Assembly: GCF_001886815.1 (NCBI RefSeq)
Contig: NZ_CP018099.1
Span: 2,664,501-2,728,500, forward strand
Origin: Caldithrix abyssi DSM 13497
Lineage (GTDB): Bacteria; Calditrichota; Calditrichia; Calditrichales; Calditrichaceae
Direction: 5' to 3'
DNA: 64,000 nucleotides
Shown: piece by piece, positions 7,609 to 52,500 of the stretch
How positions within the stretch are numbered: the stretch's first letter is position 1
Layout: each line of letters opens with the position of its first letter
Translations under genes and position numbers: made by a program
Notes under the pieces: model-generated
Told to the model about the DNA's origin: nothing
Database searches by the model: none
What the model saw: only the letters and a program-made list of their open reading frames with translations

Positions 7609-8008
7609 AGAGCGTCTGATCCGTATGATTAAATTCGGTCTGATTGGCGCATCCGGTTTAATTGTTAACAATCTGTTCTTATGGATTTTTCATGGAAAAC
7701 TGCATCTTTCGCTGGAAGTAGCCTCTCCTCTGGCCATTGTCATTGCCATTTTCAATAATTTTTCATGGAACGATCTTTTCACCTGGGGCAGAGAGCGCCA
7801 CAAACGGCGCTATACCTACTTTCACCGTTTGATTCGTTATTACACCTCGGCAGCATTAGGCGGATTGATCAACTACGCAACGCTTCTGATTCTAACCAGC
7901 AAATTTGACTGGCCTTATATTTTAAGCAATTTAATCGGCATTGGCCTGGGCATGATTTCTAATTTTTTACTGAGCGAATTCTGGGTGTTCCGCAAAAAGA
8001 GCGACTAA
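7592..8008 (+). CDS. GtrA-family membrane protein
   Basis: 138 residues from ATG 7592, with GAGG 13 bases upstream; ATG 7574 is an alternative. Four hydrophobic helices match the GtrA layout, including FGLIGASGLIVNNL in helix 1, NNFSWNDLFTW after helix 2, and the closing motif SNFLLSEFWVFRKK. GtrA proteins are thought to flip or assist transport of polyprenyl-linked sugars. It overlaps the end of the GT39 gene by 17 bp, so the two should act together. It meets the cytochrome operon tail to tail, the last 4 bp being shared with the opposite-strand flavoprotein gene. Confidence 0.88.
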   Translation: MAPQIKERLIRMIKFGLIGASGLIVNNLFLWIFHGKLHLSLEVASPLAIVIAIFNNFSWNDLFTWGRERHKRRYTYFHRLIRYYTSAALGGLINYATLLILTSKFDWPYILSNLIGIGLGMISNFLLSEFWVFRKKSD

Positions 8009-9327
8009 CCGGCCAGCGCGTTCTGGGCGACTTCCACGCCAAATTGAATGCCGATTTTTTTGAGCAAGGCAAAAGGCGGTTCGCCGCCGGCAAAGATAAA
8101 AACATAGTCATTCTCTATTTCCACCTCGCCGCGCTCTGTATTTAGAATGACGGATTTTTCTTTAATCTCTTTTACGGTGGATTTGTAAATGACAAACACC
8201 TTATTCTCTTCAATCAATTTCTCAATGCGCTCGGCATTTCGCTTTTTAATGCGAAAAAATTTATCCTTGCGGTAAGAGATGGTGATGATGTTGCCCTTTT
8301 GGTGCGCCAAACCGATGGCGGCTTCAATAGCGCTATCTCCTCCGCCAACAATCAAAATTTTATCATTCTGGTAGGCTTCTGCGTCCAGTAAACGATACAT
8401 GACCTTGCCCTGCTCTTCGCCGGGCACGTTTAATTTTCGCGGAGTGCCTCTTCGTCCCAGAGCAAGCACAACGGTGCGGGCTTTAAAAGACTCTAAGTTG
8501 GTGATCACCTTAAAATGCCCATTCTCCTGTACAACATTTTCTAACTTTAGGCCGGATTTAATCTTTAAATTGAATTTTTTTTGAGCATCTTCCCAGATTT
8601 CAAGCAATTCTTCTTTGGTGTACTCCGGCTTATCAAGAACGCCGTACAAAGGGATTTCCACAGGACGGGTCATGACCAGCTTTTTTCGCGGATAGTGTAA
8701 AATGGTTCCGCCCGCCCCCTGGCGATCTACCACCAGATAATTTAGATTGTATTTTACTGCTGTCAATCCTGCCGAAAGCCCGGCCGGGCCCGCCCCGACA
8801 ATCAGGACATCCAGCAGTTGGTCGTCTTCATCTTGCTTTTTTAAGGTCTTTGCGATGTGTTCCACGGCCACATTTCCCTGCTTGATTGCGTTGCGTATTA
8901 ACGCCAGGCCGCCTAATTCGCCTACCACATACAAACCAGGGATGTTCGTTTGAAAGTGCTCATCGGTAAAGGGAATATCGTCTCTTTTTGAAATATCTCC
9001 CAGGCCAATCACAATAGCGCCCACCGGGCAGGCTTCGGCGCACATTCCATGCCCCACGCACTTCAAACCGTTTATAATTGTGGCCTTGCCCATCACAATC
9101 CCCAGCACGCCGCCTTCCGGACAGGCATCCACACAGGAGCCGCAGCCAATGCACTCTAATTGATTGATTTGCGGAAACTGGGCAATCGGTTGATCGGCCC
9201 CCAGTTCCTGCGCTTCCGCCTTAAGGGCTTTATCCCTGTTTAACTTCCTTCTGAATTGAATAAAATACGGAACTAAAATAACCATAACGATGATGGCTGT
9301 GATTATCCAGATTATCAGACTTTCCAT
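8005..9327 (-). CDS. Membrane-anchored Fe-S flavoprotein, thioredoxin-reductase-like fold with N-terminal ferredoxin domain
   Basis: 440 residues. One N-terminal helix (4-24) is followed by basic residues (RRKLNRDK), placing the rest in the cytoplasm. Ferredoxin domain: Cys59, 62, 65 and 69 form a complete 4Fe-4S motif. In the second motif (Cys90, His93, Cys96, Cys100) His replaces the second Cys. Residues 120-160 (TNIPGLYVVGELGG...GNVAVEHI) look like the FAD-binding end of a reductase, yet they precede the dinucleotide fold GAGPAG at 178-183; a second dinucleotide motif is ILIVGGGDSAIEAA. It is the last gene of the cytochrome operon, 15 bp after the barrel gene. A likely role is electron exchange between NAD(P)H or ferredoxin and the membrane; the partner is inferred. 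The 3' end overlaps the convergent GtrA gene by 4 bp. Confidence 0.82.
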   Translation of the reverse strand: MESLIIWIITAIIVMVILVPYFIQFRRKLNRDKALKAEAQELGADQPIAQFPQINQLECIGCGSCVDACPEGGVLGIVMGKATIINGLKCVGHGMCAEACPVGAIVIGLGDISKRDDIPFTDEHFQTNIPGLYVVGELGGLALIRNAIKQGNVAVEHIAKTLKKQDEDDQLLDVLIVGAGPAGLSAGLTAVKYNLNYLVVDRQGAGGTILHYPRKKLVMTRPVEIPLYGVLDKPEYTKEELLEIWEDAQKKFNLKIKSGLKLENVVQENGHFKVITNLESFKARTVVLALGRRGTPRKLNVPGEEQGKVMYRLLDAEAYQNDKILIVGGGDSAIEAAIGLAHQKGNIITISYRKDKFFRIKKRNAERIEKLIEENKVFVIYKSTVKEIKEKSVILNTERGEVEIENDYVFIFAGGEPPFALLKKIGIQFGVEVAQNALAG

Positions 9328-9342
9328 TTTATTTTCCCTGCT

Positions 9343-10959
9343 TTAAAATCTATAGCCAAGTTCAAATAACAGGCGATGACCTTTTACATCGCTTCCCCAG
9401 TCGTATTCATAGGTAGAATTGATATAAAACCTGGCCGGCAGTTCTATTTGCCCCAGAATCCTTATCCAGTGGTTTAATTTATTATCGTTGATATTTTTAA
9501 TTTGATAATAGTAATTTCCGTATGAAAAGGTTAAATAATGCCCTCCGCGCAAATATCTGGAAAAAGTGGCATTCGGGCTAAAACCTGTGGCAAAGATATT
9601 ATCAAACCCGGAAAATCTAAAACTCATTCGATTATACTTACTGAAAAAATTCCTGCGAGTAACATTCAAACCATAACTGTAGGAGAAATTGGCATCCGTC
9701 GATTTTTCTCTGAGGCCAAAGTTCAAAGATATCTGATAATCTTTAAAGATTTTAAAATAGACATTCGCTCGCAAACCATGTCGGAAAGCATCATCAAATA
9801 AACTATCGGCCAGCGTTCTCAATTCGTAAGTATAGTAATTCTTACGATTGTCATAACTTAAAGAGGCGCTAATGCTGGAAGTGATGCGATAGTTGGCATT
9901 CAGATAAAAGCCGGTTAAGCTTAAACTCTCTTTTGCCCGTTCTTTACGCCAGTATCGGTTTACATCTATTTCCACATTGTGATAGATATTCCAGCGCCGC
10001 CCATGGTAGTAGGATACCTGAAAATACATAAACTCCCTGCTTACGGTGCCGCCGTGGTATTCACCAACGCCCGCCAGCGTTACGTTAATTTTTTTTGAAC
10101 CGAATTTTCCTCGCTCAAATTTAAGGTATCCTCCGTATTTTTGAATTTCGGTCTGGAAGTTAGAAGTTCGCCAGTCTGGTTGGGTACCGGCAAAAAGACC
10201 AAAATAAAAGTCATTGGTTAATTTTAAATTAGCCAACGCGCCGTCAATGTACCCGACCCCGCTAAACGCATTGGATATAATTCTGCCCAGTTTGTAGGTT
10301 AAAAAGGCGCCCGGAGCATTGTAGTCAAAGGTGAATTCGTACAAGCGGTTTTGCCACTCGCTTTTGGGTACGTTTGCGCTAAAACTTTTGTCGCGCAAAT
10401 TATATCGTGAACGAAATCTTAACTCAAAATTGTAATGCCGATTCCAGAGGTTCTTTATTTTCAGGCGCAGGCGCATGGTCGGCTGACTGAAATTGAGTTT
10501 GCGTGCTCCCAGATCCTTAAAATAGTAATATTGACCCGAAACATATCCGTCTATTTTTGTTTTTAAAGCCCGGGGCGCGGTGCGTTTTCTTTGATAAGGC
10601 GGCATTTTCCTTTCGCTAATCAAAGAATCTGTTTTTTGACTTGAAATGGCAGTTTCAGCGGTCTTTTCTTCTTTTACAAGTTTTGCAATATCTCCAATTT
10701 TAAAATCCCTTTGCTTTTCCAGAACGGAAGCCGATGCGCTGTATCGCGAAACAAATTCAATCTTAATTCGTCCGATCTTTTCACTGCCGTTGTAAACGAT
10801 TAGCTCATCCCCCACTGCCAGACCGTCCTTTTCTCCGCCCTGTAAATAAATGTGGCTGGCAGAAATATATTTGATTTTAAAGGTCTTAATCTCGACCTCT
10901 TGCGCCGTTATTACACCCAGAATTGTAATCAAGATGAGAAAAATTTTGATTCGGGTCAT
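9343..10959 (-). CDS. Outer-membrane beta-barrel protein of the multiheme cytochrome operon
   Basis: 538 residues with a signal peptide ending near VITAQ. Residues 25-95 form a small FlgT-like beta module (GGEKDGLAVGDELIVY...FKIGDIAKLV). A Lys/Arg/Pro-rich linker follows. From about residue 135 to the end are many alternating amphipathic strands rich in Tyr, Phe and Asn, ending LLFELGYRF with a terminal Phe, the mark of an outer-membrane barrel. It follows the 10-heme gene by 2 bp and precedes the flavoprotein by 15 bp. By analogy with MtrB-type porin-cytochrome complexes it may hold or seat a cytochrome in the outer membrane. No MtrB sequence signature was recognised, and the barrel (about 400 residues) is smaller than MtrB. 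Confidence 0.75.
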   Translation of the reverse strand: MTRIKIFLILITILGVITAQEVEIKTFKIKYISASHIYLQGGEKDGLAVGDELIVYNGSEKIGRIKIEFVSRYSASASVLEKQRDFKIGDIAKLVKEEKTAETAISSQKTDSLISERKMPPYQRKRTAPRALKTKIDGYVSGQYYYFKDLGARKLNFSQPTMRLRLKIKNLWNRHYNFELRFRSRYNLRDKSFSANVPKSEWQNRLYEFTFDYNAPGAFLTYKLGRIISNAFSGVGYIDGALANLKLTNDFYFGLFAGTQPDWRTSNFQTEIQKYGGYLKFERGKFGSKKINVTLAGVGEYHGGTVSREFMYFQVSYYHGRRWNIYHNVEIDVNRYWRKERAKESLSLTGFYLNANYRITSSISASLSYDNRKNYYTYELRTLADSLFDDAFRHGLRANVYFKIFKDYQISLNFGLREKSTDANFSYSYGLNVTRRNFFSKYNRMSFRFSGFDNIFATGFSPNATFSRYLRGGHYLTFSYGNYYYQIKNINDNKLNHWIRILGQIELPARFYINSTYEYDWGSDVKGHRLLFELGYRF

Positions 10960-10961
10960 GA

Positions 10962-11765
10962 TTAATCATCCCCCTTTCCGCTCCTATGACATTCATAACA
11001 GGCATTGCTGTCATATCGATAGCCTGCCACATCATCATGTTCCCTGTCGGTTGCCGCCTGATTGTGTTCGTGGCAATTCAAAAAACAAGAGAAAGTAGAA
11101 TAATTGCCGGCATCGTAATGGCAGGTGGTACAACTTTCCCATCGTCCGGCATGTTCACCAGAAAATATGGGAAAATATTGACCGTCGTGTTTCTTAAATG
11201 TCGCCGGTTTCCATGAGAACAACGAATGACAATCTTCACATAAAACGCCAAACCCAAGGTCGTCGTGCACAGGATCTGTGGCTGCTAAGTAATCGTTTTT
11301 ATGACATTCAATGCAATTGGAAGACAACCTTCGCCATTCGCCTTCTACTTCCCCACGGTGACAGGTCCAACAATCCAGATTGGCATGCCGACCGATTAAC
11401 TGAAAGGATGTGTTGCCATGGGCTTTTTGAACATCCATTACAATCCAGCTCTGCGTCATATGGCATCTTTCACAGTCCGGATATAAACGGTTTCGGTGCA
11501 CATCTGTATGACAGGAGTTACAATTTGCCTGCACCTGAGAAAAATCTGCCAGATTATGGCAGGAGACACAGGCAATTTTTTTATGCTCGCCGCTTAATTC
11601 ATAGCCCGTTGTTGTGTGATCAAACGAGATATCCTGCCAGTTTTTCGTTACATGGCAACTTTCACAGGGTAAAGTCAAAACTTTATGCGGCGTTTCCCCT
11701 GCGTCGGCAGTTTGTATTGCAAAAAACACAAATATCAAAATTAAATTAATGAATTGATGCCCCAT
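10962..11765 (-). CDS. Secreted deca-heme c-type cytochrome
   Basis: 267 residues from ATG 11765, chosen because AGGAG overlaps the end of the upstream gene immediately before it and a signal peptide (MGHQFINLIL...TADAG) then starts cleanly. Nine CXXCH sites (first CESCH at about 34, last CYECH at about 256) and one atypical CX3CH (CFLNCH, 227-232). Extra His in FDH, GEH and GRH segments can serve as sixth ligands. The order of motifs is colinear with the first seven and last three hemes of the adjacent 22-heme protein, so the two genes are paralogs. Likely a periplasmic or surface electron carrier; position and redox partner are inferred from the operon. Confidence 0.9.
   Translation of the reverse strand: MGHQFINLILIFVFFAIQTADAGETPHKVLTLPCESCHVTKNWQDISFDHTTTGYELSGEHKKIACVSCHNLADFSQVQANCNSCHTDVHRNRLYPDCERCHMTQSWIVMDVQKAHGNTSFQLIGRHANLDCWTCHRGEVEGEWRRLSSNCIECHKNDYLAATDPVHDDLGFGVLCEDCHSLFSWKPATFKKHDGQYFPIFSGEHAGRWESCTTCHYDAGNYSTFSCFLNCHEHNQAATDREHDDVAGYRYDSNACYECHRSGKGDD
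11070..11087 (-). other. Atypical CX3CH heme site in the deca-heme cytochrome
   Basis: Codons spell Cys-Phe-Leu-Asn-Cys-His, one residue longer than CXXCH. The aligned site in the 22-heme paralog is the normal CITCH. CX3CH and longer spacings are known to take heme in some cytochromes. Confidence 0.85.
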
Positions 11766-11767
11766 GC

Positions 11768-13462
11768 TTAATCTCCTGCTTCCTTTCCTTGCGGATGGCA
11801 ATCGTAACATGCCCGGCTTTCATAAACATAATTAGTTACTTCACTGTGTTTAGCATCCATTGTTGTTCTTTCGTGTTCGTGACAGGTAATACATTCAAAT
11901 TGAGAATAATCGGCGCTGTTCACATGACAATCGGAACAGGTATCCCATGCTCCCTGATGGCTCCCGGAATAAATCGGGAAATATTGGGCGTCATGGTCCC
12001 AGTTTGCCGGCTGCCAGGCTGTCGTAGAATGGCAGTCTTCACAGGTAAACGGGAAATTGGCCGCCTGGTGGTTCGGATCGGTTGTGGCGTCATAATCCTG
12101 TTGGTGGCATGAAACGCAACTGGTGGGCGTATTCTCATACCCGCTTGCATGGCAATCAATGCACTGCACGTTTTGATGAGCGCCGGTCAATGGAAAGTTC
12201 GTTTGCGCATGATCGAAAGTAGCCGGAGTCCAGGACGTGGTCGAATGACAGTTTGTACAATCATGGCTGAAATTGCTCTGCTGATGATCCGGATCGGTTG
12301 TCTGGTTAAAATCATTCTGATGGCAGGAATAACAATCGGTTGCAATTCCGGAATACTGTCCGTCCGTATGACAATCTTCACAGGCAGCGGTTTGATGGGC
12401 CCCAGTCAGGGGAAAAGCCGTCCGATTATGATCGAAGTCGGAAGGCGACCAGGCCTCCTGGTTGTGACAGATTAAGCAATCCTGAGGAAAGTTGCCCGTT
12501 ACATGATTGGGATTGAGCGCACGATTGTAATCATTTTGATGACATCCGTAGCAATCGCGGGGTAAACCACGAAGCTGGTTATTGACATGACAATCGATGC
12601 ATTTTACTTCTTCCGATCTTGCGTGCACGCCAACTAAAGCAAATCCGCTTGCAGATAGGTGATCGAAGTCGCTCCGTTCCCACATCTGGGGAGAATGACA
12701 CTCCTGGCAATTGGTGGGAAAGCCAAAAAGCATGTGATTCGGGTTGGTTGTACTTTCATATTGATCCTGATGGCAGGCGTAACATTCGACAGAAACGCCC
12801 TGATAGCGATCATTGTGGCAATCAACGCATTCCAGATTGCTATGTCCGCCAACCAGTGGAAACGTTTCACTATGCTCATAAATGGCCTGTTTCCATGAGG
12901 CCGCGTTAACTAAATGACAATTTTCGCATTGTAAGGAAAATCCAGCCTTTTGATGAGAGGGATTTATGGTCTTTAAAAAATCTTGAATATGGCATTGCTG
13001 GCACTCAACGCTTTTTAGCTTAAAGTCCTGCCTGTCTTCCCGATCATGACAGGATTGACAATCAATAACGGCGTGGATTCCATAAAGCGGAAAGCGCGTA
13101 TTTTGATGGATTTCAAACACTTCAAAGCGATTCTCCCAGCTATCCGGCGAGTGACAACGTTCGCAATCAACGCCCAGCCTGCCCTGATGCACGTCCTGGT
13201 GGCAATCGATGCAATTATGTCCGATGTGAGAAAAAACAAGGGAATTATGACAGCTCAAACACTCAACCTGACGATGCGCTCCCAACAAACGGAAGCCGGT
13301 CGTATTGTGATCAAAGAGGATTTGCTGAGGATCTACCTTCCAGGTTTTGGTCGTATGGCAAAGTTTGCAGTCCAAATTAAAATTTGGCCCATGAATAAAA
13401 TCCGCCGGGTGCTGCCCTGTTGCCTCCGTCAACATCAACAGTATAAAAACGATCCAATACAT
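11768..13462 (-). CDS. Secreted 22-heme c-type cytochrome
   Basis: 564 residues, signal peptide to about residue 16 (TEATGQ). Twenty-two CXXCH motifs by direct count. Hemes 1-7 (residues 32-183) and 20-22 (509-556) align one for one with the deca-heme neighbour. Between them lie four tri-heme repeats of about 73 residues starting at the FPLVGGH, FALVGVH, FPLTGAH and FPLTGAH segments (about 201, 274, 350 and 423), each ending with a conserved FDH or WDH that supplies distal His. The start overlaps the stop of the 20-heme gene (TGATG), implying coupled translation. Such linear heme chains conduct electrons over long distances; a role in electron export or import at the cell surface is inferred. 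Confidence 0.93.
   Translation of the reverse strand: MYWIVFILLMLTEATGQHPADFIHGPNFNLDCKLCHTTKTWKVDPQQILFDHNTTGFRLLGAHRQVECLSCHNSLVFSHIGHNCIDCHQDVHQGRLGVDCERCHSPDSWENRFEVFEIHQNTRFPLYGIHAVIDCQSCHDREDRQDFKLKSVECQQCHIQDFLKTINPSHQKAGFSLQCENCHLVNAASWKQAIYEHSETFPLVGGHSNLECVDCHNDRYQGVSVECYACHQDQYESTTNPNHMLFGFPTNCQECHSPQMWERSDFDHLSASGFALVGVHARSEEVKCIDCHVNNQLRGLPRDCYGCHQNDYNRALNPNHVTGNFPQDCLICHNQEAWSPSDFDHNRTAFPLTGAHQTAACEDCHTDGQYSGIATDCYSCHQNDFNQTTDPDHQQSNFSHDCTNCHSTTSWTPATFDHAQTNFPLTGAHQNVQCIDCHASGYENTPTSCVSCHQQDYDATTDPNHQAANFPFTCEDCHSTTAWQPANWDHDAQYFPIYSGSHQGAWDTCSDCHVNSADYSQFECITCHEHERTTMDAKHSEVTNYVYESRACYDCHPQGKEAGD
11981..12862 (-). repeat. Four in-frame tri-heme module repeats inside the 22-heme gene
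   Basis: Residues 201-494 consist of four modules of 72-76 residues (about 219 bp each). Each has the order F-x-L-x-G-x-H, CXXCH, CXXCH-Q-x-D/N-Y/F, NPNH/DPDH/DPNH, CXXCH, F/W-D-H. Modules 3 and 4 are the most alike. This block is absent from the neighbouring deca-heme paralog. Confidence 0.88.
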
Positions 13463-15144
13463 CAGTTTACCTCAACAGGTTGAATGATCTCTTTTCCGTG
13501 GCACTCATTACATGAAGTCGGGATGGGTTTGTATTTAACAAATCTTTTAGCGTTCTGCACCGCAATTTTGTGGCAATCATTACAGGGGACTTTCGCATGC
13601 GCTCCAGAAAGTTTAAATTTCGAGTCCCGGTTATGGTCAAACTTTCGCGCTATCCAGTCTTGAGGAGTATGGCAGCGTTCACACTCAATGGCCCCGGATG
13701 CCGTTTTGAATTGCCCAAGGTGGACGTCTTCGTGACAGTCTTCGCATTTAACGGGCACACCTGCAAATTTAAAAACGCCGCGCGCATCCGGTTTATGGCA
13801 CTCTCTGCAAGCTACTTTTTGATGGCGCCCCTCAAGTTTAAAGTTGGTAATGGCATGATCAAAGCTAACCAGATCCCAGCGTTCAACCCTATGGCAATGC
13901 TCACAACCATCCATGTTATTTATGGTTGAAGTTAATTTTAAGTACTTATTTAACTGATTGTCATGCGGGTCCTCATGACAATCGATGCATCGTGTAGATT
14001 TAAACCGGAACTGCATGGTTTCCTGAGGAGTTCCCTGATTGATTTTTTTATGACACAAAATGCAGGGCACAGCCTGATGCGCGCCCTTTAAAGGGTAGTT
14101 TGTGCTTTGATGATCTTTCATGCTAAAGGTGGATGGCGAAAAGCCATTAACCGTATGACAATGTTCGCAGGCGCCTTTAGATTGACTCGTTGCAAACTGT
14201 CCCTGATGATAGTCCTGATGACAATCTGTGCAGGATTGGAAACGCGCAATTTTCAAGGTCTCTGAGCTTTTATGGCACTCTTTACATTCAACCGTCTGGT
14301 GTTTGCCCCGTAGCGGAAAAGCGGTAAGATCGTGGTTAAATGCCTTTTTGTTGTATTCTTTCCAGCCATTTGTGGTATGACATTGTTCGCACTTTTGTCC
14401 GAATTTCTTTTGATGAGGATCTTTATGGCAGTCGACACACCTGGTAAAATTTTTTACTTTGAAATCAAGATACACACTGTCTTTTCCAATCGGACGATCT
14501 GCCTTAATCTTATGACATTTCTGACATTCTACTTTTTTATGGCGCCCGGTTAGTTTATATCGCGTTTTATTGTGATCGAATTTGGGCACAGGCTTCCAGC
14601 TTTTCATTACATGACAATCTAAACAGTTTTCGTTCAATTGCCCCCGGTGTTCATCAATATGGCACGAAAGACACCGTTGCTCCAGACCTAAAAAGGTACG
14701 GTTCAAATCTTTTTTTTGATCCAATAATTCCTTTTTGTTGACAATAAATTTTTCGTTATGGCAATCCCTACACTTTAAAGCGGCATGCGCGCCTTCCAGA
14801 ACATAGCCGGTTTTACTGTGATCGAAATTTTCCTGTCCTTCCTTCCAGTACACTAATTCAGCATCTCTCCCATGATGTTCAATGTGGCAATTTTTGCACT
14901 CTTTAAATTCTTCATTGGCATGCAGTCCCTTTCCCTGCTCGATCCTTTCTTTCAACAATTCGTGGCAATCCAGACAGCGATCGCCCGACAACTGTTTCCC
15001 TCTTTCATGGCATTTGGTACAATTTTCAATGCCTTCCAGATTCTTATGTACTTGATGCAATTTACCCGGAGACAGCTGAGCGAAAGATAGAGAATAAAAA
15101 AATAATAAATACGAAAATACAAATATTTGAAATTTTAAAAACAT
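13462..15144 (-). CDS. Secreted 20-heme c-type cytochrome
   Basis: 560 residues, signal peptide to SFAQ at about 23. Twenty CXXCH motifs by direct count, first CTKCH (42-46), last CNECH (545-549). The repeat texture (FDHNKTRYKLTGRHKKVECQ, FPLRGKHQTVECKE) is related to the two downstream cytochromes but more Lys-rich, so the protein is basic where they are Asn/Asp/Gln-rich. It starts 16 bp after the cytochrome b gene and overlaps the 22-heme gene by 1 bp. The basic character and position next to the membrane protein suggest a periplasmic carrier taking electrons from, or giving them to, the b-type subunit. That order is inference. Confidence 0.93.
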   Translation of the reverse strand: MFLKFQIFVFSYLLFFYSLSFAQLSPGKLHQVHKNLEGIENCTKCHERGKQLSGDRCLDCHELLKERIEQGKGLHANEEFKECKNCHIEHHGRDAELVYWKEGQENFDHSKTGYVLEGAHAALKCRDCHNEKFIVNKKELLDQKKDLNRTFLGLEQRCLSCHIDEHRGQLNENCLDCHVMKSWKPVPKFDHNKTRYKLTGRHKKVECQKCHKIKADRPIGKDSVYLDFKVKNFTRCVDCHKDPHQKKFGQKCEQCHTTNGWKEYNKKAFNHDLTAFPLRGKHQTVECKECHKSSETLKIARFQSCTDCHQDYHQGQFATSQSKGACEHCHTVNGFSPSTFSMKDHQSTNYPLKGAHQAVPCILCHKKINQGTPQETMQFRFKSTRCIDCHEDPHDNQLNKYLKLTSTINNMDGCEHCHRVERWDLVSFDHAITNFKLEGRHQKVACRECHKPDARGVFKFAGVPVKCEDCHEDVHLGQFKTASGAIECERCHTPQDWIARKFDHNRDSKFKLSGAHAKVPCNDCHKIAVQNAKRFVKYKPIPTSCNECHGKEIIQPVEVN

Positions 15145-15160
15145 TACCCCTCCATTCCGC

Positions 15161-16045
15161 TTAGAACCAGGTATATCCCAACCAGACTACAATACCTACA
15201 TGAATCATCATAATTAAATACATTAAAATGGCAAAAGGCTTGTGAATAACGTGCCAGTAATGAAAAATCTGTTGAATTTGATTTAAAAAGTGAATTCGCT
15301 GCTCCAGCTTTGCTTGTTGAACCGTCAAATTTACTAATGTTTTAATCCTTGCTCTCGAAATATTCAATTTTTCTTCCACACGCTTATAAATACGTGGGCG
15401 TCTAAAAAAGAGAATGAGATCAATTAAGACTAAGGAGACAAATACCTTAAAAAACGAATCCGATGTGAAATGGACGCCAATTTCTTCCTCAAGAGTAACA
15501 AATTCCTGATCATCTAACTGATATTCATATTGTATTTTGGATTTCAATCTTTCATTAATATTCATGGCTTTGTCTTTGCTTAATTCAATCCCCACAATAT
15601 TCCGCGGAATCTGAACATAAATAAACCTCCCGAATACGCCAGACAGGGCAACGGCAATCATCGACCAGAAACTAACGGCAACCAGGCCATCTACTTTAAA
15701 CGTGGTGTGTAAAATAACAAAAAGCGGCCCCATAATTCCTAAAAAAATATGAAAATTCAACCAGCGATTCAATGCGCCCCATCTTCTAAATGCTTTAACT
15801 CTTTTTCGAAGGGAATAAAACAATAGTGATATCATCATTAATGATCCCATGATACCAAGCCCATGACTTATTCGGCCTCCTGGTTTTAAGTTTTGGTATT
15901 GAGGATGACGAATTTTTTCCTGCAGTGGTAATCGATAATAGTCCCAACCGGTGTATAAAAAATAAAGCAGAAAAAGCCCTGTCACAAGATAAAGCAAAAT
16001 CATAAAATATTTAAACAGATTATTCTTTTGTTGTTGCGAAAGCAT
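15161..16045 (-). CDS. Six-helix di-heme cytochrome b-type membrane protein
   Basis: 294 residues with hydrophobic helices at about 11-33, 57-80, 95-117, 121-147, 198-214 and 266-292. Two helices carry His pairs with 13 residues between them, His99/His113 and His268/His282, the spacing used to hold two stacked b hemes in a four-helix bundle. A soluble loop of about 50 residues (148-197) follows helix 4. First gene of the operon, with AAGGAG 9 bases before the ATG. It most resembles quinol-oxidising cytochrome b subunits partnered with multiheme cytochromes (CbcL, NrfD/CymA-type roles) in function rather than in clear sequence family. Likely couples the quinone pool to the periplasmic 20-heme protein. 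Confidence 0.8.
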   Translation of the reverse strand: MLSQQQKNNLFKYFMILLYLVTGLFLLYFLYTGWDYYRLPLQEKIRHPQYQNLKPGGRISHGLGIMGSLMMISLLFYSLRKRVKAFRRWGALNRWLNFHIFLGIMGPLFVILHTTFKVDGLVAVSFWSMIAVALSGVFGRFIYVQIPRNIVGIELSKDKAMNINERLKSKIQYEYQLDDQEFVTLEEEIGVHFTSDSFFKVFVSLVLIDLILFFRRPRIYKRVEEKLNISRARIKTLVNLTVQQAKLEQRIHFLNQIQQIFHYWHVIHKPFAILMYLIMMIHVGIVVWLGYTWF

Positions 16046-16127: not shown

Positions 16128-16161
16128 CCAACTATTTTATTCTTAAATCTAATCGTCAAAA

Positions 16162-16189
16162 TTTATACTTTTTTTAATATAAATGTAAA
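16162..16189 (-). promoter_or_regulatory. Sigma-70-type promoter of the cytochrome operon
   Basis: On the minus strand TTTACA (16189-16184) is followed after 16 bp by TATAAA (16167-16162). Transcription would begin near 16155 and leave a 5' leader of about 110 bases before the cytochrome b gene. Confidence 0.55.
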
Positions 16190-17066: not shown

Positions 17067-18095
17067 TTAAATATGAATAATATCTACGTTTAAAGCGGCA
17101 AAAACATTCTGAATTCTGTTAATTACGGTGCTTGAACTACTCCCGGCAAAAAGCAATCCTACAATTTCGCTGTTCATATTTAACACCGCCGAACCGCTGT
17201 CTCCGCCGGCGCTCATATTGCCGGTCATTAACTGATCTACAAAAACGGCCGTTTTGTTTTCCCCATAACTCACGGAAACCGTCACATCAACCTGTTCGAT
17301 CTGGCCGGTGGTCCAACCGGTGGTGCGTCCGCTTTTTTGAACCTTCATGCCCAGCTCGCCTTCGGCCACGCCCTGAATGGTGCCGATTTCGGCAATTTCA
17401 TTAACCACGTCACCCGGATTAAGCGGCTTAGCTATGGCGCAATCCACCAGATTTTCTGTAGCCTGGCTCTCTTGCTGACGAACGGCCTTTAAGCGAGTTT
17501 TACTGCCGATAAGAGCGGCCATTCCGTTAAGCAAACTACTCACCGCATTACCAATCGAACATGTACTGTCGCCGCCGTTTTCCCCTTCGAAATGGATAGG
17601 GACAAACTCGCTCAAATTGGCAATATGATCCTGTGGGTGGCTCCCGCCGTCATAAGGGCCGGGTTGTAAAATCGGATCGCCAATCTCCGCCTGGTTGCTA
17701 TTGGCCAACACATGATTGTTGGAAAGAATGTACACCTCTCCGTCTCTTTGCACAAGGCAGCCAAGCGTACCGGCAGTAATATTAATATGACCAATACTTA
17801 CGCCGCCGGGAGCGGGTCGATAACGCGCGGTGTGATCAAACTGGGCGTAAAAAATCCCGCTGGGCACCACATCGGTAGGCAGACCATTAATCGATTGCGG
17901 TATCAGATCATTCTGCGTTAAAAATTTTTTAGAAACCTTGGTATCAACGGAGCAAATAACCGCCAGCTCGCCAGTCTTCTTTCCGTTGACTACCTTGTAA
18001 CCGATGCCTGTGGCCACAACATGGGGCTTATTGTGTAACTCGCGTCGGTATTCTTTAATGATTTGCCGGGCGGCTGCAAGATCTAATGTCATCAT
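17067..18095 (-). CDS. Trypsin-like serine protease (Nal1-like), no signal peptide
   Basis: 342 residues; GAGGAGGGA lies immediately before two tandem ATG codons (18095 and 18092). N-terminal domain of about 80 residues (VVATGIGYK...INGLPTDVV), then a chymotrypsin-fold domain with the triad visible as His128 (SNNHVL), Asp218 (LVDCAIAKP) and Ser300 (AGGDSGSA). Other family-like text is GCLVQRDGEVYILSNNHVLA and KSGRTTGWTTG. This resembles the Nal1/DUF-type trypsin-like peptidases of bacteria and plants. There is no export signal, so it may act in the cytoplasm, which is unusual for a trypsin-fold enzyme. It sits 3 bp upstream of a free copy of its own N-terminal domain. Confidence 0.85.
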   Translation of the reverse strand: MMTLDLAAARQIIKEYRRELHNKPHVVATGIGYKVVNGKKTGELAVICSVDTKVSKKFLTQNDLIPQSINGLPTDVVPSGIFYAQFDHTARYRPAPGGVSIGHINITAGTLGCLVQRDGEVYILSNNHVLANSNQAEIGDPILQPGPYDGGSHPQDHIANLSEFVPIHFEGENGGDSTCSIGNAVSSLLNGMAALIGSKTRLKAVRQQESQATENLVDCAIAKPLNPGDVVNEIAEIGTIQGVAEGELGMKVQKSGRTTGWTTGQIEQVDVTVSVSYGENKTAVFVDQLMTGNMSAGGDSGSAVLNMNSEIVGLLFAGSSSSTVINRIQNVFAALNVDIIHI

Positions 18096-36397: not shown

Positions 36398-38920
36398 TCA
36401 CTTTAACAACATTATTTTTGAAATTTGTTTTACCGCTGCTCTACCTTTCAGCTCCACAAAATAAACGCCGCTGGCCATGTCCTCCATTGGCAAACGAATG
36501 TGGTGCAGACCGGCATTAAGTAAAATCTTCTTTTTAAAGACTTTGATTTTTCTACCTCGCAGATCATACAACGAAATCTGAAAGTAATCCGTTACGGCCG
36601 TTGTTATTTCCAGCGTGGTGCTGCTATTAAAGGGATTGGGGAAATTCCTCAGTAAAACAAATTTTTGCGGCGTCCGTGGTGGCCCTGGTAAGGTGCTTAA
36701 CATGCTCTTTAATTTTAACAATCCCAGCCCATTACTGTCTTCCCACCAGCCGATTTTAGAATCGCGTCTGCCGCCGTCATCGTCATCATTTATTTGAAGA
36801 TCGAAAGCAATAAGTTGTCCTTCAGCCGGTTCTTTCCTTAAGGTTTTCCAGGGGATGGCCAGTTCTGCAAAATAACCGTCATCCAGCATTTTAACACCGT
36901 ACACAATCCCTTCCACCGCCTGCTGCTCCGTTTCAACAAACTGTGAATCCTGAAAGGTAAAACGGTAGGTAAATGTATGGGAATAAATGGCGTTCGACTT
37001 TCCATAGTTCATATCAAAAAGAAGTTCCAGGCCGTCATCCTGATAAAAGTTTACGCCGGAGTCTCTGATCTTTAAATCGTCAAAGATGCGAACCAGTAAA
37101 TAAAGATTGACATCGTCCCACAGCATTTTAAATCTGGCGGAAAGGTCTGACTGGTTTTCGATATTATCCATTAACACGTGTTCTACGGATTGCCATGCAA
37201 CCTGGCGCCACTGATCTTCTTCAAAGGCATCCACATAGATCGCGCCCTCCGTTTTCATAACGATCAGTCCGTCGCTTTCGGTAAAGAGTTCGGTACTGGC
37301 TGTAATCTGTGCTTCTTCCAGTGAACGATTCCCTGCAAAATCCCGGCTTTTAATCGTAATATGATACGTTTTGTCATCTTCCAGATCGTACAACGTGACG
37401 TTGTTCAGACGTGTCGGTTGCAGGTATTTCCCATCAAGGTAAACATCATAGCCGGCAATGCCCACATTATCAGTGGCGGATTCCCAGGTCAGGGCAATGC
37501 TGGAATGGTCAGCCTGCGTAACGGAAATTCGACCGGGTCTTGTGGGCGGTTGCTCATCAAACAACTGAGAATCCATCCAGCTTAAGCGTTCTGCGATCCA
37601 GTTTTTCAGATAGTTAATTTCGTCCTCATAGGTTTGCCCGATGAAGTAATTAGGCCAGACGTACTTACCCAGCACATCCCAGCGTTGAAAATTGCGCGCC
37701 TGAGCCTCGTTCAATGTATCCACATAACTATCGATCAACTGATAAATGTGCCACAGGGAAAACACATCCTCACGCAGGATTTGATAGCGTTGAATCAGCT
37801 TTTTAACGAATATGCTGTCGCTCATTAATTTTTCCCACCAAAAAGGCACCAGAAAAGGATCATTCCAATCCACAAACTGTGGATCTCGATTGATGTCAAT
37901 TTGCCAGCCAGTAGTTTGATAGCCGTGGTAATAATCGGCATTGCCAAAACCTAAATTAAAGTCCCAGATCGGCCCCATATACAATCGACCGTCTTTGCTG
38001 TCCTTATCTTTGTACATAAAGGTGCTTAGCCGGTAGCCATCCACATTCTTACTGATTTCATTTAACAGAAAAAAATCAACAAAAGAATTTAAATTCACCC
38101 ATCGATAGTAGCCGCTATCGGGATGCATGAAAGTATTCTTAAATAACGAAAGCTCAAAATTAAACATCCAGTTCTGAATGTAGGCTTTTTGCTGACTGAC
38201 GATTTCATCGGGCTTCGGGTAATGGTATTGAAAAAAGATGCGAAAAGCGCTTTGTGGATAAGGCGGAAAGATTGACTGCCAGCCGTCAACCAGCTCACCG
38301 GCGCGCTTATCGATTTTAATGATGTAGCCGCCCGTCAGATCATCGCCGCTAATTTCATCGGCTTTGAGCTTCGAGATATTTACGCGATTCTTATCCCGCT
38401 TGATTTTTTCCATCAAAACATAAATGCCGCGGTAATCGCCGTTTAAAACCAGCTCGCAAAACCGCGTCCGGCTGGCGTACTGCCCTATTTCTCGACTCAA
38501 CTGGTAGATTAACACATTGCGTATTAAAGACTTATCGCTGTATGGCGCGTATAAAATCCAATCGTTTTCCGCTGGCAAGCCGAGTAAAGAAACATTGAGA
38601 TTCTCACCCGATTCGGTCTGCGTTTCCAGTCTGTATTGCTTTTTTGGAAACATCTGTGAACTGGCGCCGCGCAGTTCAATGGCAATTTTTCCTTCAAAAT
38701 GGTTAAAGGATTGGTTTAGATAATTTCTTTGATCCGGACCGTTGTAAATAATGCCCATGTCAGCCACAATGCGATACTCGTCAGGAATCTCCTGACCATG
38801 CGTGTCAATCACCACAATGGGCAAATTAGAAGACTCAAAGGAGACATTCTGTGCCGCCAGAGTTAAGGCTGTGCAAAACAGCGTCGTCAGGACAAGGCCT
38901 GTCATTTTCAAAATAGGCAT
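36398..38920 (-). CDS. Secreted CotH-family protein with FN3, CBM9-like domain and type IX sorting tail
   Basis: 840 residues with signal peptide to about LAAQ. CotH kinase-like domain 25-450: IELRGASSQMFPKKQYRLE, NDWILYAPYSDKSLIRN, GPIWDFNLGFGNADY. FN3 domain about 475-560 (ITLTWES-like core). CBM9/DUF1083-like sugar-binding domain about 570-745 (YVDAFEEDQW...YFAELAIPWKTL...LIAFDLQINDDDDG). Sorting tail from about 755 (LLRNFPNPFNSSTTLEI...SGVYFVELKG...MLLK). CotH proteins are atypical kinases of spore coats and, in cellulolytic bacteria, of cellulosome parts. Here a surface glycan-related role is inferred from the CBM9-like domain. Confidence 0.88.
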   Translation of the reverse strand: MPILKMTGLVLTTLFCTALTLAAQNVSFESSNLPIVVIDTHGQEIPDEYRIVADMGIIYNGPDQRNYLNQSFNHFEGKIAIELRGASSQMFPKKQYRLETQTESGENLNVSLLGLPAENDWILYAPYSDKSLIRNVLIYQLSREIGQYASRTRFCELVLNGDYRGIYVLMEKIKRDKNRVNISKLKADEISGDDLTGGYIIKIDKRAGELVDGWQSIFPPYPQSAFRIFFQYHYPKPDEIVSQQKAYIQNWMFNFELSLFKNTFMHPDSGYYRWVNLNSFVDFFLLNEISKNVDGYRLSTFMYKDKDSKDGRLYMGPIWDFNLGFGNADYYHGYQTTGWQIDINRDPQFVDWNDPFLVPFWWEKLMSDSIFVKKLIQRYQILREDVFSLWHIYQLIDSYVDTLNEAQARNFQRWDVLGKYVWPNYFIGQTYEDEINYLKNWIAERLSWMDSQLFDEQPPTRPGRISVTQADHSSIALTWESATDNVGIAGYDVYLDGKYLQPTRLNNVTLYDLEDDKTYHITIKSRDFAGNRSLEEAQITASTELFTESDGLIVMKTEGAIYVDAFEEDQWRQVAWQSVEHVLMDNIENQSDLSARFKMLWDDVNLYLLVRIFDDLKIRDSGVNFYQDDGLELLFDMNYGKSNAIYSHTFTYRFTFQDSQFVETEQQAVEGIVYGVKMLDDGYFAELAIPWKTLRKEPAEGQLIAFDLQINDDDDGGRRDSKIGWWEDSNGLGLLKLKSMLSTLPGPPRTPQKFVLLRNFPNPFNSSTTLEITTAVTDYFQISLYDLRGRKIKVFKKKILLNAGLHHIRLPMEDMASGVYFVELKGRAAVKQISKIMLLK

Positions 38921-44061: not shown

Positions 44062-45948
44062 CCCCAGTTTGACAGTTAAGGTCAAATTTTTCAAAGCCAA
44101 ATCAATAAAAACATATAATTAAGTTCCTCTGTTTCAATTTATTTGTAGTCTATGCAGGCGTGCTTTTTTTATTTGCTATCAAATCGTTTTATTATTATAT
44201 TCATTCTATGTTTGTTAAGGTAAGTCGATCCAAAAGAAATAACAAAGTCCATGAGACTTTACAAATCGCTGAGTCCTACAGAGACTCAAATGGAAAAGTA
44301 CGCCATCGAATCTTGCTGCATTTAGGCCCTACCGACAAATTCATCAAAAAAGACGTAGACACGCTTATCAACGGACTTTTAAGGGCTAAGGGGTTAACTT
44401 TACAGGACTTAGATAGCAATATTGATAATGTCAAGGCCTTCGGTCAAATCTGGGCGCTTGTCCATTTATGGAAAGAGCTTAAAATGAGCCAGATTATTGC
44501 CAGGCAAAAGGAAAAAAGCGGAATAAAGTTTGATCTTGAAGCTCATTTAAAAAGTCTGATATTTAACCGCCTGGATGATCCTTCTTCCAAACTAAAACTA
44601 CTCACCTGGTTAGAAACCGTTTATATTCCGGGTATCAACAAAGACGACATTCGTTATGAGTATCTTTTAAGAGCGATGGATTTTCTAATAGCTCATAAGG
44701 AAAAGATTGAAACCCAACTTGCTAATCGTTTACTAGATCTGTTTAATCAGGATCTAAAGGTTTGTTTTTATGATTTAACATCAAGCTACTTTGAAGCCGA
44801 AAACTCATTGGTAGAAGGCGATATTCGTCAGTTTGGTTATAGTCGTGACCACCGCGGAGATAGAGAACAGATCGTAATTGGCGTGGTGATGACCGGAGAT
44901 GGTATTCCTATAGCCCATTACGTCTTCCCTGGCAATAAGGCTGATCGCTCTACCTTGCAAGAGATGCTCAATGATATTCGCAGGCGATTTAAGGTAAAAG
45001 ATATCCAGCTGGTGGCAGACAAAGGTTTATTAAGCAATGACAATCTCTGGCATTTAATCCAACAAGGTTATGAGTTTATTCTTGGAGAGAGTGTTCGTCA
45101 GAGCAAGGATGCCAAATCGGTTATAAAAGAAGCCAATGCGCATAAAGAGGCGACTGGTGAGACGATCTATGAGCGCCTAACGGAGCGTGAAATCAAGTCA
45201 AAAGATGGTAAAAAGGAAAAGATAAAACTTCGTTATGTGGCCAGTTACAATGCCGCCACGGCATTAAAGCGCTATAAAAATCGCATCAATCGTATTAATG
45301 AATTTTTAGAGCTGTCAGAAGAGATTAAGAAAAAGGAAATAAACACAGAAGATAAATATCATCAAATAAAGAGTGTATTATCAAGAAAACGTTTAAGTCG
45401 TTTCTTTAATGTTGAATTAACAGAAGATACGATAGAGATTCATAAGCAAGATGAGGTATTATCAGAAGAAGAAAAGAGCGACGGTTGGTTTATAGTGATA
45501 AGCAATGCTCATGACCTGAGTAAATCAGAACTCATAGCGCGCTATAAAGATTTAAAATATGTGGAGCATGGTTTTTACGAATTAAAGCATAGTTTGAATT
45601 TACGTCCCAATTTTCATTGGACAGAGAAGCGTATCAGGGCTCATGTGATGGTATGTTTTCTTGCATTCCAGATGGCAGTATTGTTTGAGAAGCGTTTGAG
45701 TGGCATAAAATTAAGTTGGCAGCGTGCTATGGAGAGCCTGCGTCGAGTCGTGGTTGTAGAATGGGAAAATGAAGGGAGACGTCGAAAAGGTTTATCCAGA
45801 GTGCATGTCGAACAGTTGGAAATATTTCAGGAGATAGGCAGCAGCAAACCAACGCTTTTATCTTTGTAGTGACAACTTAACGAAAATGAAATTAAACTAA
45901 CTTAATAATAATAAAGGAATTATGTGTCATACAACTGTCAAACTCAAG
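44062..45948 (+). mobile_element. IS1634-family insertion sequence, complete
   Basis: 1887 bp. Ends CCCCAGTTTGACAGTT (left) and CTTGAGTTTGACAGTT (right, reversed) match at 13 of 16 positions, with 12 in a row. Flanked by a 6-bp target duplication TTAAAA. One intact transposase gene. The family call rests on the transposase. Confidence 0.92.
44208..45869 (+). CDS. IS1634-family transposase
   Basis: 553 residues from ATG 44208; a TTG-led start at 44160 is rejected. N-terminal text FVKVSRSKRNNKVHETLQIAESYRDSNGKVRHRILLHLG is the usual start of IS1634 transposases. Catalytic acids: Asp189 (CFYDLTSSYFE), Asp in LVADKGLLS, and the C-terminal Y-x2-x-E-K box in YVEHGFYELKHSLNLRP. Frame is intact, so the element may still be active. 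Confidence 0.93.
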   Translation: MFVKVSRSKRNNKVHETLQIAESYRDSNGKVRHRILLHLGPTDKFIKKDVDTLINGLLRAKGLTLQDLDSNIDNVKAFGQIWALVHLWKELKMSQIIARQKEKSGIKFDLEAHLKSLIFNRLDDPSSKLKLLTWLETVYIPGINKDDIRYEYLLRAMDFLIAHKEKIETQLANRLLDLFNQDLKVCFYDLTSSYFEAENSLVEGDIRQFGYSRDHRGDREQIVIGVVMTGDGIPIAHYVFPGNKADRSTLQEMLNDIRRRFKVKDIQLVADKGLLSNDNLWHLIQQGYEFILGESVRQSKDAKSVIKEANAHKEATGETIYERLTEREIKSKDGKKEKIKLRYVASYNAATALKRYKNRINRINEFLELSEEIKKKEINTEDKYHQIKSVLSRKRLSRFFNVELTEDTIEIHKQDEVLSEEEKSDGWFIVISNAHDLSKSELIARYKDLKYVEHGFYELKHSLNLRPNFHWTEKRIRAHVMVCFLAFQMAVLFEKRLSGIKLSWQRAMESLRRVVVVEWENEGRRRKGLSRVHVEQLEIFQEIGSSKPTLLSL

Positions 45949-49314: not shown

Positions 49315-49574
49315 TCTTCAAACTTTTTGATGACGTGGATTTGAATGACGCAACACTTTTGTTGATTTTTCGCCGTTTTTTGTGTAATTGCGCAACACAT
49401 GAGTAAGCAAAACGTTTTAAAATTGCATATAATGGCCATAATGGGAATTCCCTTTACAGACATTATTCGATTTTTGTCGATCTTTTCTTGATTTAACGCA
49501 GTTCAGGCCATGCTACACGCTTTTTCTGTAATTTTTGCCCAGGAGAAAAAGCAAAACGCAGGAGAATGGCAGTC

Positions 49575-52500
49575 ATGAAATCATCGTTTTTCGTTTTGTT
49601 CCTCGCCCTTACGCTTTTTGCCCAAACAGAAATTCCCGATCAAAGTGAAGTTTACGGCGTTTGGGGCGTGGACGGTTCTCCCTACCTGATCAATGGCGAA
49701 GTCATTGTTCCACAAAACGAGATTCTGGTCATTGAGGCAGGTGTTGAAGTACGGTTTAAAACAGGAACCAGTCATGAGTACATCAATCCTTCATTCGATC
49801 TGGGTTTTATACGCGTTCAAGGCGCCTTACAGGTAAAGGGCAGAGCCGACAGTCTGGTCGTCTTTACCCGTCAGGGAAGTAGCGGCCAGTGGGGCATTCT
49901 CTTTTTTGACGAATCGGCCAGCGATTCGTCGTTTCTGCGCTTTGCTAAAATTGAACACGCTTCTTACATCCAATACCTGCATGATTGGTTGGATTTTAAC
50001 GGCGCGCTTAGCGTGGTCAATGTTGCGCTGAACGTCGAAAACTGTCAGATAGCCAACAACGCCGGCGACGGGGTTTATGTTAAATCGGCGGCAATTCAGC
50101 TAACCAACTGTTTGATTAACGACAACGGCGGACATGGCATTCGTCTCCTTTCTGAGAGCGACGCACAAATTTACAACTGTACCATCGTGTTTAATAGTTT
50201 AAGCGGCTTTGATTGCGGATTGAACAGTCAACCGCTGATGGTCAATTCGATTTTGTACAGCAACGCAAGCGATCTGGAAATCGGTAAATATTCTCAGCTC
50301 ACGCTAGATCACTGCTTGCTGCAAAGCTCTACCCTGCCCTCGCAGGTAATCAGCGCGGGCAGGAATTTTCCGGGCAAAAACCCCCATTTTGTTGATGCGC
50401 AGCAGCAGGATTACCGTCCCGGCCCCAACTCCTGGGCCGTAAACAACGGCCTGCCCGATAGCAGTCAATTTTATCACCTCGCCACCGATTTACAGGGCAA
50501 TCCGCGCTTTATTCACGGCCGCATCGATCTTGGCGCGCTGGAGCGCAGCGGCGACTTTTTACGCCTGGAATATCCGATTGGCAACGAATCCTTATTGCAA
50601 AATTCGATTGAAATCCTGCGCTGGAGCAGCAATGTGCAGGGCGTTGAAATCGACTACTCCACCGACGCCGGGCTGACCTGGCAAAGCGTCGCCAGCTACG
50701 ACGGCAGCGAAAACCGATTTAAATGGCAGGTCCCGGCGTTGATTTCCGAAGACTGCCTGCTGCGCATTACGGCTCAAAACGATTTTCAAATAACAGACAT
50801 TAGCGACACTACCTTCATCATCAGCGATCACACCATTATTCGCCCCGGATTGAGTGTTTCCGGCAAATGGCAAAAAGCGGGCAGCCCGGTTGAGGTGCGC
50901 GGACCAACCGTGGTGGAAAAAGACTCCACCCTGCAAATTGAGGCGGGCGTGGAAGTACGCTTTAAAGCCGGCAACCATTTTGACTACAGTTCTACTGAAT
51001 TCGACGCCGCCTTTTTGCAAGTTAAGGGACACCTGCAGGCGCACGGCGCGGCAGGCGACACGATTGTATTTACTGCCCTGGAAAGCGATCGATATTGGGG
51101 CGGATTGATCATTGAAGACAGCGACAGTCTGGGCAGCGTGTTGCGTTTTGTCAAAATCGAACGGACTTACGGTATTGACAGCCTGGAGGGCAAAAATTTT
51201 CCGGCGGCCCTGTCTGTTTCCGGCGCTAAAATGCAATTGGAACACATGAGAATTACTAACAATGCGCGCAACGGCCTTCTGGTGACGGGCGCAGGTAACC
51301 ATCTGATCGCCCGATGTGTAATTGAACGCAACGAGCGGAACGGCATTTTGTTCGCCGAAGAGTCTAAATTTCCCACGCCGGAAGTAGCCAACAACACCAT
51401 TCGCTTCAACGGTTTGCACGGTATTTTTGTCAACGGTATCTTTTCTGCCTTCATTCACGACAATCTTATTACGCGCAACGATTCATGCGGCGTTAAGCTG
51501 CTTTCCGGCTATGCCGTGCCACAAATCGTTAACAATCGAATTGGTTATCAAAAAGTGGGCGTTTTTTGCGACAACGCGCAGGCCAAACTGGTGGGCAATG
51601 TGGTTTACCACAACGAACAGGGGCTGCTTTTAGATAACGCCAGCCCGGACATCGGCAACCTGACGCTGGCCGATAATACTACCGCCATCCGCGGCATGAA
51701 CACCAGCTCCATTTTAACCAATATTTTATTTGCTTTCAATGCCAGTGATTTTTCTTTCCCTTCCGGCGACAACAGCGCGCCCGGAATTTCCTATTCTTTG
51801 ACAGATAAATATTTTTTCGCTCCTCAGGTTACCGACCTTGGATTTAACCGTTACGGTAGCAAGACCACCTTTAAAAAGCAGGCGCCGCATTATTACGCCT
51901 TAACCGCCGGGGCGGCGGCCATTGATCATGGCACCATGGACAATTCTCTTATTACACTTCCTGAAATGGATGTGGCCGGCAAACCACGCATAACGGACGG
52001 CAATGATGACGGTACGGAAACCATTGACATTGGCGCTTACGAATTTGCCCTTTTGCAGGCCGATTTTAAAGCGCAGCCAACGGCGGGCAAACTCCCCTTA
52101 AAAGTGCAGTTTACGGATCAATCAAAGGGCGAAATCACAACCAGGCGCTGGGACTTTGGCGACGGCGTCACAGACAGCGTGCCCAATCCGCAGCATGTTT
52201 ACCATTCGACCGGCCGCTTTGACGTTCAATTGATCGTGAGCGGCCCGGTAGGCGCGGATACCCTTTTACAAAAGGAATACATTTACGCCAAACATCCGCC
52301 CTTTGTCTGTCAACCGGCGCCCGATGTCTCCTTTTTTGAAGACAGCGACTGGCAGTTTGTGGCACTGCTAACTAAGGTGTTTTGCGATTCAGACAGCGCC
52401 GCCCGCCACAGTTTTACGGTTTCCGGCTCATCCCCACACATTTTGAAAAAGGTAAAAAACGATTCGTTGTTCGTAAAAGGGGAGGAAAATTTTTATGGCC

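Follow-up and report, generated by a model that had tools for sequence, protein, structure and literature searches.

Background

Porin–cytochrome conduits of the PCC3 type were predicted in Proteobacteria in 2017, with a model that links them to the quinone pool (He et al., PMC5566968). Their inner membrane protein is about 300 residues long and has five transmembrane (TM) helices, two WX3HX13H motifs and an SGxxG motif; it is annotated as 'hypothetical', and its use of quinone is only guessed (PMC5566968). The periplasmic cytochrome has a median of 21 hemes (21–27) and the extracellular one a median of 34 (up to 85), with 22–39 residues per heme (median 26), and the porins have up to 42 strands (PMC5566968). 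A study of the Gallionellaceae describes the same four parts (PMC10734462), and the type is known from Fe(II) oxidizers (PMC5566968, PMC10734462).

The window analysed here is a stretch of 64,000 nucleotides from the genome of Caldithrix abyssi DSM 13497, a single contig of 4.98 Mb. The available part of the genome paper reports growth by nitrate reduction and fermentation only, leaves metal respiration unreported and does not discuss the cluster described below (PMC5317091).

The six-gene operon fits the PCC3 description

Six open reading frames run along the minus strand from 8005 to 16045, with intergenic gaps of 16, −1, 2, 2 and 15 bp, which reproduces the coordinates and spacing given in an initial annotation of the sequence. 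The single sigma-70-type promoter proposed there could not be established, as the matches upstream of the operon (16131–16189) reach 9 of 12 positions and equally good ones are common in this AT-rich region.

The gene at the head of the run, CYTB (15161–16045, minus strand), encodes a diheme b-type inner membrane protein of 294 residues with five predicted TM helices. Its two His-x13-His pairs, already recognized in the initial annotation, are H99/H113 and H268/H282; each forms part of a WX3HX13H motif (W95-H99-H113 and W264-H268-H282), and SGxxG occurs as SGVFG at residue 135, so that CYTB agrees with the PCC3 inner membrane protein in size, TM number and motifs. At least two H-x13-H pairs are present in 39 of 39 CYTB homologs compared with 6% of shuffled sequences, the double WX3HX13H in 36 of 39 and SGxxG in 34 of 39, and the four histidines are invariant in the alignment. 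The loop between TM2 and TM3 holds seven K/R residues, and the positive-inside rule, applied to the predicted helices, puts H99/H268 near the cytoplasm and H113/H282 near the periplasm. CYTB scored above the cut-off of no Pfam or NCBIfam family, and a PDB profile search gave no relevant match; AlphaFold models built from shallow alignments were poor (pLDDT 61 for CYTB and 56 for FLAVO) and were left unused. CbcL, CymA and ImcH are likewise inner membrane entry points of extracellular electron transfer chains, but their inner membrane subunits carry c-type hemes, whereas CYTB contains no CXXCH motif.

Three multiheme c-type cytochromes follow on the minus strand: C20 (13462–15144, 560 aa), C22 (11768–13462, 564 aa) and C10 (10962–11765, 267 aa counted from Met16 of a longer reading frame), the last being a 10-heme paralog of the 22-heme C22. 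They contain 20, 22 and 9 CXXCH motifs, and C10 has in addition one CX3CH (CFLNCH). The operon thus encodes 51 CXXCH motifs, and the 52 c hemes predicted earlier are reached only when the CX3CH is counted. This site arises from a one-residue insertion present in the window and in the ortholog from the same genus (L042:6114-6974); in the six more distant of the seven orthologs compared it is CXXCH. C20 is nearly constant in heme number, with exactly 20 motifs in each of the 13 full-length proteins from the first set of relatives; outside the phylum nearly all close relatives also have 20, apart from one with 19 and Emticicia with 23. This number matches the PCC3 periplasmic cytochrome of about 21 hemes. 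The C22 slot, in contrast, is very variable in relatives (7 to 76 hemes), and this heme-variable slot together with the predicted barrel would be a further likeness to PCC3. Residues per heme (28 in C20, 25.6 in C22, 26.7 in C10) lie within the PCC3 range. Judging solely from its signal-like N-terminal segment, C20 would be periplasmic; the placing of each cytochrome in the periplasm, across the outer membrane or outside it is provisional, and no surface lipoprotein cytochrome is evident.

BARREL (9343–10959, minus strand; 538 aa) is predicted to form an outer-membrane beta barrel and has a small domain at its N terminus that is FlgT_C-like in 3 of 20 relatives. It ends in YRF, in agreement with the terminal Phe noted previously. 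About 22 strands were counted by eye on the alignment, compared with up to 42 in PCC3 porins. The window protein has no Pfam match, and a PDB profile search found no solved structure for it. The Mtr/Mto/Pio systems differ from the operon, in which family models detect neither a decaheme MtrA-type cytochrome nor an MtrB-type barrel: C20 and C22 score 51 and 34 with the DmsE/MtrA-family model, far below its cut-off of 192, and C10 has no match. The EeuP humin-oxidation system was considered as a match and rejected as a different, four-heme system.

The operon thus fits a PCC3-like system, likened by motifs, heme counts and the published description, with a flavoprotein added, and is not a new kind of conduit. 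The initial annotation had recognized no described system in this combination of genes; the flavoprotein is the part missing from the PCC3 description, which assumes the quinone pool, and a word search of that paper found neither 'flavo' nor 'thioredoxin' (PMC5566968).

FLAVO has a permuted flavin module and a histidine-containing cluster motif

The last gene, FLAVO (8005–9327, minus strand, as are all coordinates in this section), encodes a membrane-anchored Fe-S flavoprotein of 440 residues. Residues 1–24 (9256–9327) form a predicted TM anchor followed by FRRKLNR, and the positive-inside rule predicts an N-out topology with the domain in the cytoplasm. Two cluster motifs follow. The one at residues 59–69 (9121–9153) is the Cys4 motif CIGCGSCVDAC, whose second Cys is replaced in some relatives, and the one at residues 90–100 (9028–9060) is the Cys3His motif CVGHGMCAEAC. 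The latter reads C-x2-H-x2-C-x3-C and so departs from the standard 4Fe-4S ferredoxin motif; its His93 is found in every one of 21 aligned sequences and is kept in nearly all of a wider set. The earlier description as a flavoprotein with 4Fe-4S sites therefore holds for the Fer4 and Pyr_redox domains and less well for the second motif.

The profile of residues 108–168 (8824–9006) matches the C-terminal portion of the FAD/NAD module in 24 solved flavoproteins (best E 3e-4), that is, the last module segment of glutamate synthase small chain (GltD), glutathione reductase (GR), lipoamide dehydrogenase and thioredoxin reductase (TrxR), and here it stands ahead of the FAD-binding GxGxxG. Residues 173–429 (8041–8811) make up the core that binds FAD and NAD(P), and they match the stretch lying ahead of this last segment in the same flavoproteins. 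The FAD/NAD(P)H module of FLAVO is thus, by these profile matches, a circularly permuted TrxR-like one. FLAVO shares this core with thioredoxin reductase and YpdA (E 9e-54 with the YpdA NCBIfam model, score 182, under the cut-off of 339.9), but differs from them in its permutation, its Fe-S clusters, its TM anchor and the lack of the CxxC active-site disulfide. Since all seven Cys of FLAVO belong to the cluster motifs, it is not a disulfide reductase. Occupancy by FAD and Fe-S clusters would follow from the motifs.

The same permuted module also occurs in four ORFs of about 755–774 aa (L062, L063, L064 and L065), fused ahead of a polytopic membrane ferredoxin region resembling, by sequence, NosR/NapH; no cytochromes are nearby, and these fusions are another use of this flavoprotein type. 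A Pseudoalteromonas plasmid protein (L124:4932-7286) matches it as well.

The genes are conserved together across phyla and on a plasmid

With FLAVO as the query against 60 relatives, full-length homologs of 50–69% identity were found in 21 genomes beyond the window's own, along with partial or divergent ones. Gene order, read at 20 FLAVO loci over as much as about 20 kb of surrounding sequence, is conserved as CYTB-C20-C22-(C10)-BARREL-FLAVO. BARREL immediately precedes FLAVO at 19 of the 20, the exception being L048, from a genome whose remaining genes are on other contigs. Of the 11 loci with a contig long enough to show it, 10 have CYTB immediately ahead of C20. The neighbourhood comparison suggested by the initial annotation thus finds the genes kept together both within the phylum and well beyond it, as well as on a plasmid.

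Across a census of 385 genomes, CYTB is present in 51, FLAVO in 41, C20 in 40 and BARREL in 35, and these four main genes co-occur (Fisher p 2e-30 to 3e-40). FLAVO and CYTB are shared by 39 genomes, with FLAVO alone in 2 and CYTB alone in 12 (p 3e-40); these p values are overstated, as kin genomes are not independent, and the figures from outside the phylum, mostly from different families, are fairer (19 shared, FLAVO alone in 1, CYTB alone in 8, p 5e-24). Every pair other than FLAVO and CYTB has p below 1e-10. On plasmid pEMTOL02 of Emticicia oligotrophica DSM 17448, genes for ccsA, CYTB, FLAVO, a 23-heme and a 40-heme cytochrome and BARREL are consecutive and form a complete set; their annotated products are hypothetical, NAD(P)-binding or cytochrome c3 family proteins. 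CYTB and FLAVO are adjacent in L119, where the sequence for about 6 kb on the downstream side and 9 kb on the upstream side contains no cytochrome. A CYTB and FLAVO pair in L009 was rejected as an independent two-gene unit, as the contig stops just past FLAVO and the order elsewhere is CYTB-FLAVO-C20.

CYTB is fused to, or found beside, different cytoplasmic-type partners

FLAVO and CYTB are naturally fused in two lineages, with FLAVO N-terminal. The fusion in L120 (753 aa) has 23- and 76-heme cytochromes as neighbours, and that in L108 (946 aa) a 20-heme cytochrome. The 76-heme protein, which adjoins the L120 fusion, is 1934 aa long with 76 CXXCH motifs. In L097 and L098, CYTB is fused behind 4Fe-4S ferredoxin modules. 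The N-terminal position of the FLAVO and ferredoxin modules agrees with an N-in topology of CYTB.

On proteobacterial plasmids, from Methylophaga, Roseomonas, Alteromonas and Acetobacter, distant CYTBs adjoin FAD_binding_6/NAD_binding_1 reductases. Among the four scanned, three have a Fer2 domain, and 7-heme cytochromes are present in three; other distant CYTBs adjoin Pyr_redox_2 proteins. These unrelated NAD(P)H reductases show that the cytoplasmic partner of CYTB is exchangeable, which is the main argument for CYTB taking electrons from, or giving them to, such partners. On Alteromonas macleodii plasmids, a CYTB relative, a 2Fe-2S reductase and a 7-heme cytochrome lie directly upstream of hydrogenase genes (L127:6989-13708).

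A comparable arrangement is found in PCC4 subgroup II, where an inner membrane protein with the same motifs has a cytoplasmic-type Fe-S protein next to it or attached to it; that Fe-S protein is, however, of pfam13247, the cytochromes have 4, 5 and 10 hemes, and the permuted flavoprotein is absent (PMC5566968).

Proposed electron path and alternatives

We consider it somewhat probable that the operon encodes a PCC3-like trans-envelope conduit in which electrons pass directly between a cytoplasmic flavo-FeS protein and a transmembrane diheme b protein. NAD(P)H, or some other two-electron carrier of the cytoplasm, would reduce the FAD of the membrane-anchored, permuted FLAVO, and the electrons would pass to its two Fe-S clusters and from there, with no quinone between, to the cytoplasmic-side heme b of CYTB (H99/H268). 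They would then move to the periplasmic-side heme b (H113/H282), to the fixed-length C20 in the periplasm, and through the variable-length C22 and C10 wires and the outer-membrane BARREL to an acceptor outside. The direction of flow and the outside partner are presumptive, and a reverse flow, with electron uptake and reduction of NAD(P)+, is conceivable. If this model is right, the arrangement is like that of the NADPH oxidase/ferric reductase family (FRD, PF01794), in which a cytoplasmic NAD(P)H-FAD unit feeds a stacked pair of b hemes, with H-x13-H on TM3 and TM5 holding them. The operon differs from that family in that none of 12 CYTB members matched PF01794 at E 0.01, the flavin unit is of the TrxR type, has Fe-S clusters and is a separate subunit in most relatives, and the output would be a multiheme wire in place of oxygen or a ferric chelate.

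The initial annotation had also drawn a full path from cytoplasm to surface with its own flavoprotein. A trans-envelope path is our best reading too, and the genes are conserved together; the flavin–quinone–periplasm order given there is disfavoured by the FLAVO–CYTB fusions and the exchange of partners, which favour direct transfer from flavin/FeS to heme b over a quinone step. The quinone-linked alternative, in which CYTB oxidizes menaquinol or reduces menaquinone and FLAVO delivers electrons to the quinone pool, or draws them from it, like a type II dehydrogenase, seems to us rather unlikely. It is the published model for PCC3 and PCC4 (PMC5566968), and a membrane-anchored flavoprotein could reduce quinone. 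CYTB also exists in genomes without any FLAVO; together with the published PCC3 systems, which have no flavoprotein, this means that CYTB need not depend on FLAVO, a point against our preferred reading, as are the growth data of C. abyssi, which leave metal respiration unreported (PMC5317091), and the lack of an evident surface lipoprotein cytochrome. However, a quinone-linked role is not what the FLAVO–CYTB and ferredoxin–CYTB fusions suggest, nor the replacement of FLAVO beside CYTB by other soluble-type reductases, and a simple type II dehydrogenase would not need Fe-S clusters. On the fusions and gene contexts, direct transfer would be the better account.

That the operon serves electron uptake, with Fe(II), a partner cell or humics as the source and inward flow reducing NAD(P)+, appears improbable. 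The same parts can work in either direction, but reduction of NAD(P)+ by most outside donors is uphill unless energy is supplied, as general bioenergetics holds, and Emticicia, which carries the genes, is a heterotroph. PCC3 does occur in Fe(II) oxidizers (PMC5566968, PMC10734462), whereas C. abyssi is known as a fermenter and nitrate reducer (PMC5317091). We give very little credence to a periplasmic chain for redox or detoxification purposes whose outer-membrane transporter is an unrelated neighbour. BARREL is without a structural match, and among the distant CYTB clusters some are surrounded by copper-resistance genes or have one of 7 hemes as their sole cytochrome, yet BARREL co-occurs with the cytochromes and is in the operon of nearly every relative, and wires of up to 76 hemes are far beyond the needs of a periplasmic enzyme.

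Direct transfer between flavoprotein and CYTB could be extended to all PCC3-type inner membrane proteins, which would then be ports for cytoplasmic flavin/Fe-S reductases and not quinone enzymes, served in the large group considered here by a hitherto undescribed permuted TrxR-fold flavoprotein with a His-ligated Fe-S cluster in a quinone-independent wire from NAD(P)H to the outside; we offer this tentatively, leaning slightly against it. Our data suggest that, within the open-access literature searched, the new part is the flavoprotein, in this and many other lineages, the PCC3 wire type itself being known. FLAVO suggests how such wires are powered and would revise the quinone-linked PCC3 model; its conservation, the fusions and the partner swaps offer a concrete, testable answer to how PCC3-type wires are linked to metabolism. 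The comparison also extends the PCC3-like system to Calditrichota, Bacteroidota, many other families and a plasmid, where its genes are labelled, for example, 'hypothetical' or 'NAD(P)-binding domain-containing protein'.

Other genes in the window

Elsewhere in the window, 17067–18095 encodes a trypsin-like protein whose N-terminal domain resembles that of plant NARROW LEAF 1. Large secreted proteins with a C-terminal Por_Secre_tail (type IX secretion) sorting domain are encoded at 36398–38920 and 49566–53183, and DDE-family transposase genes are found at 44160–45869 and 59261–61021.
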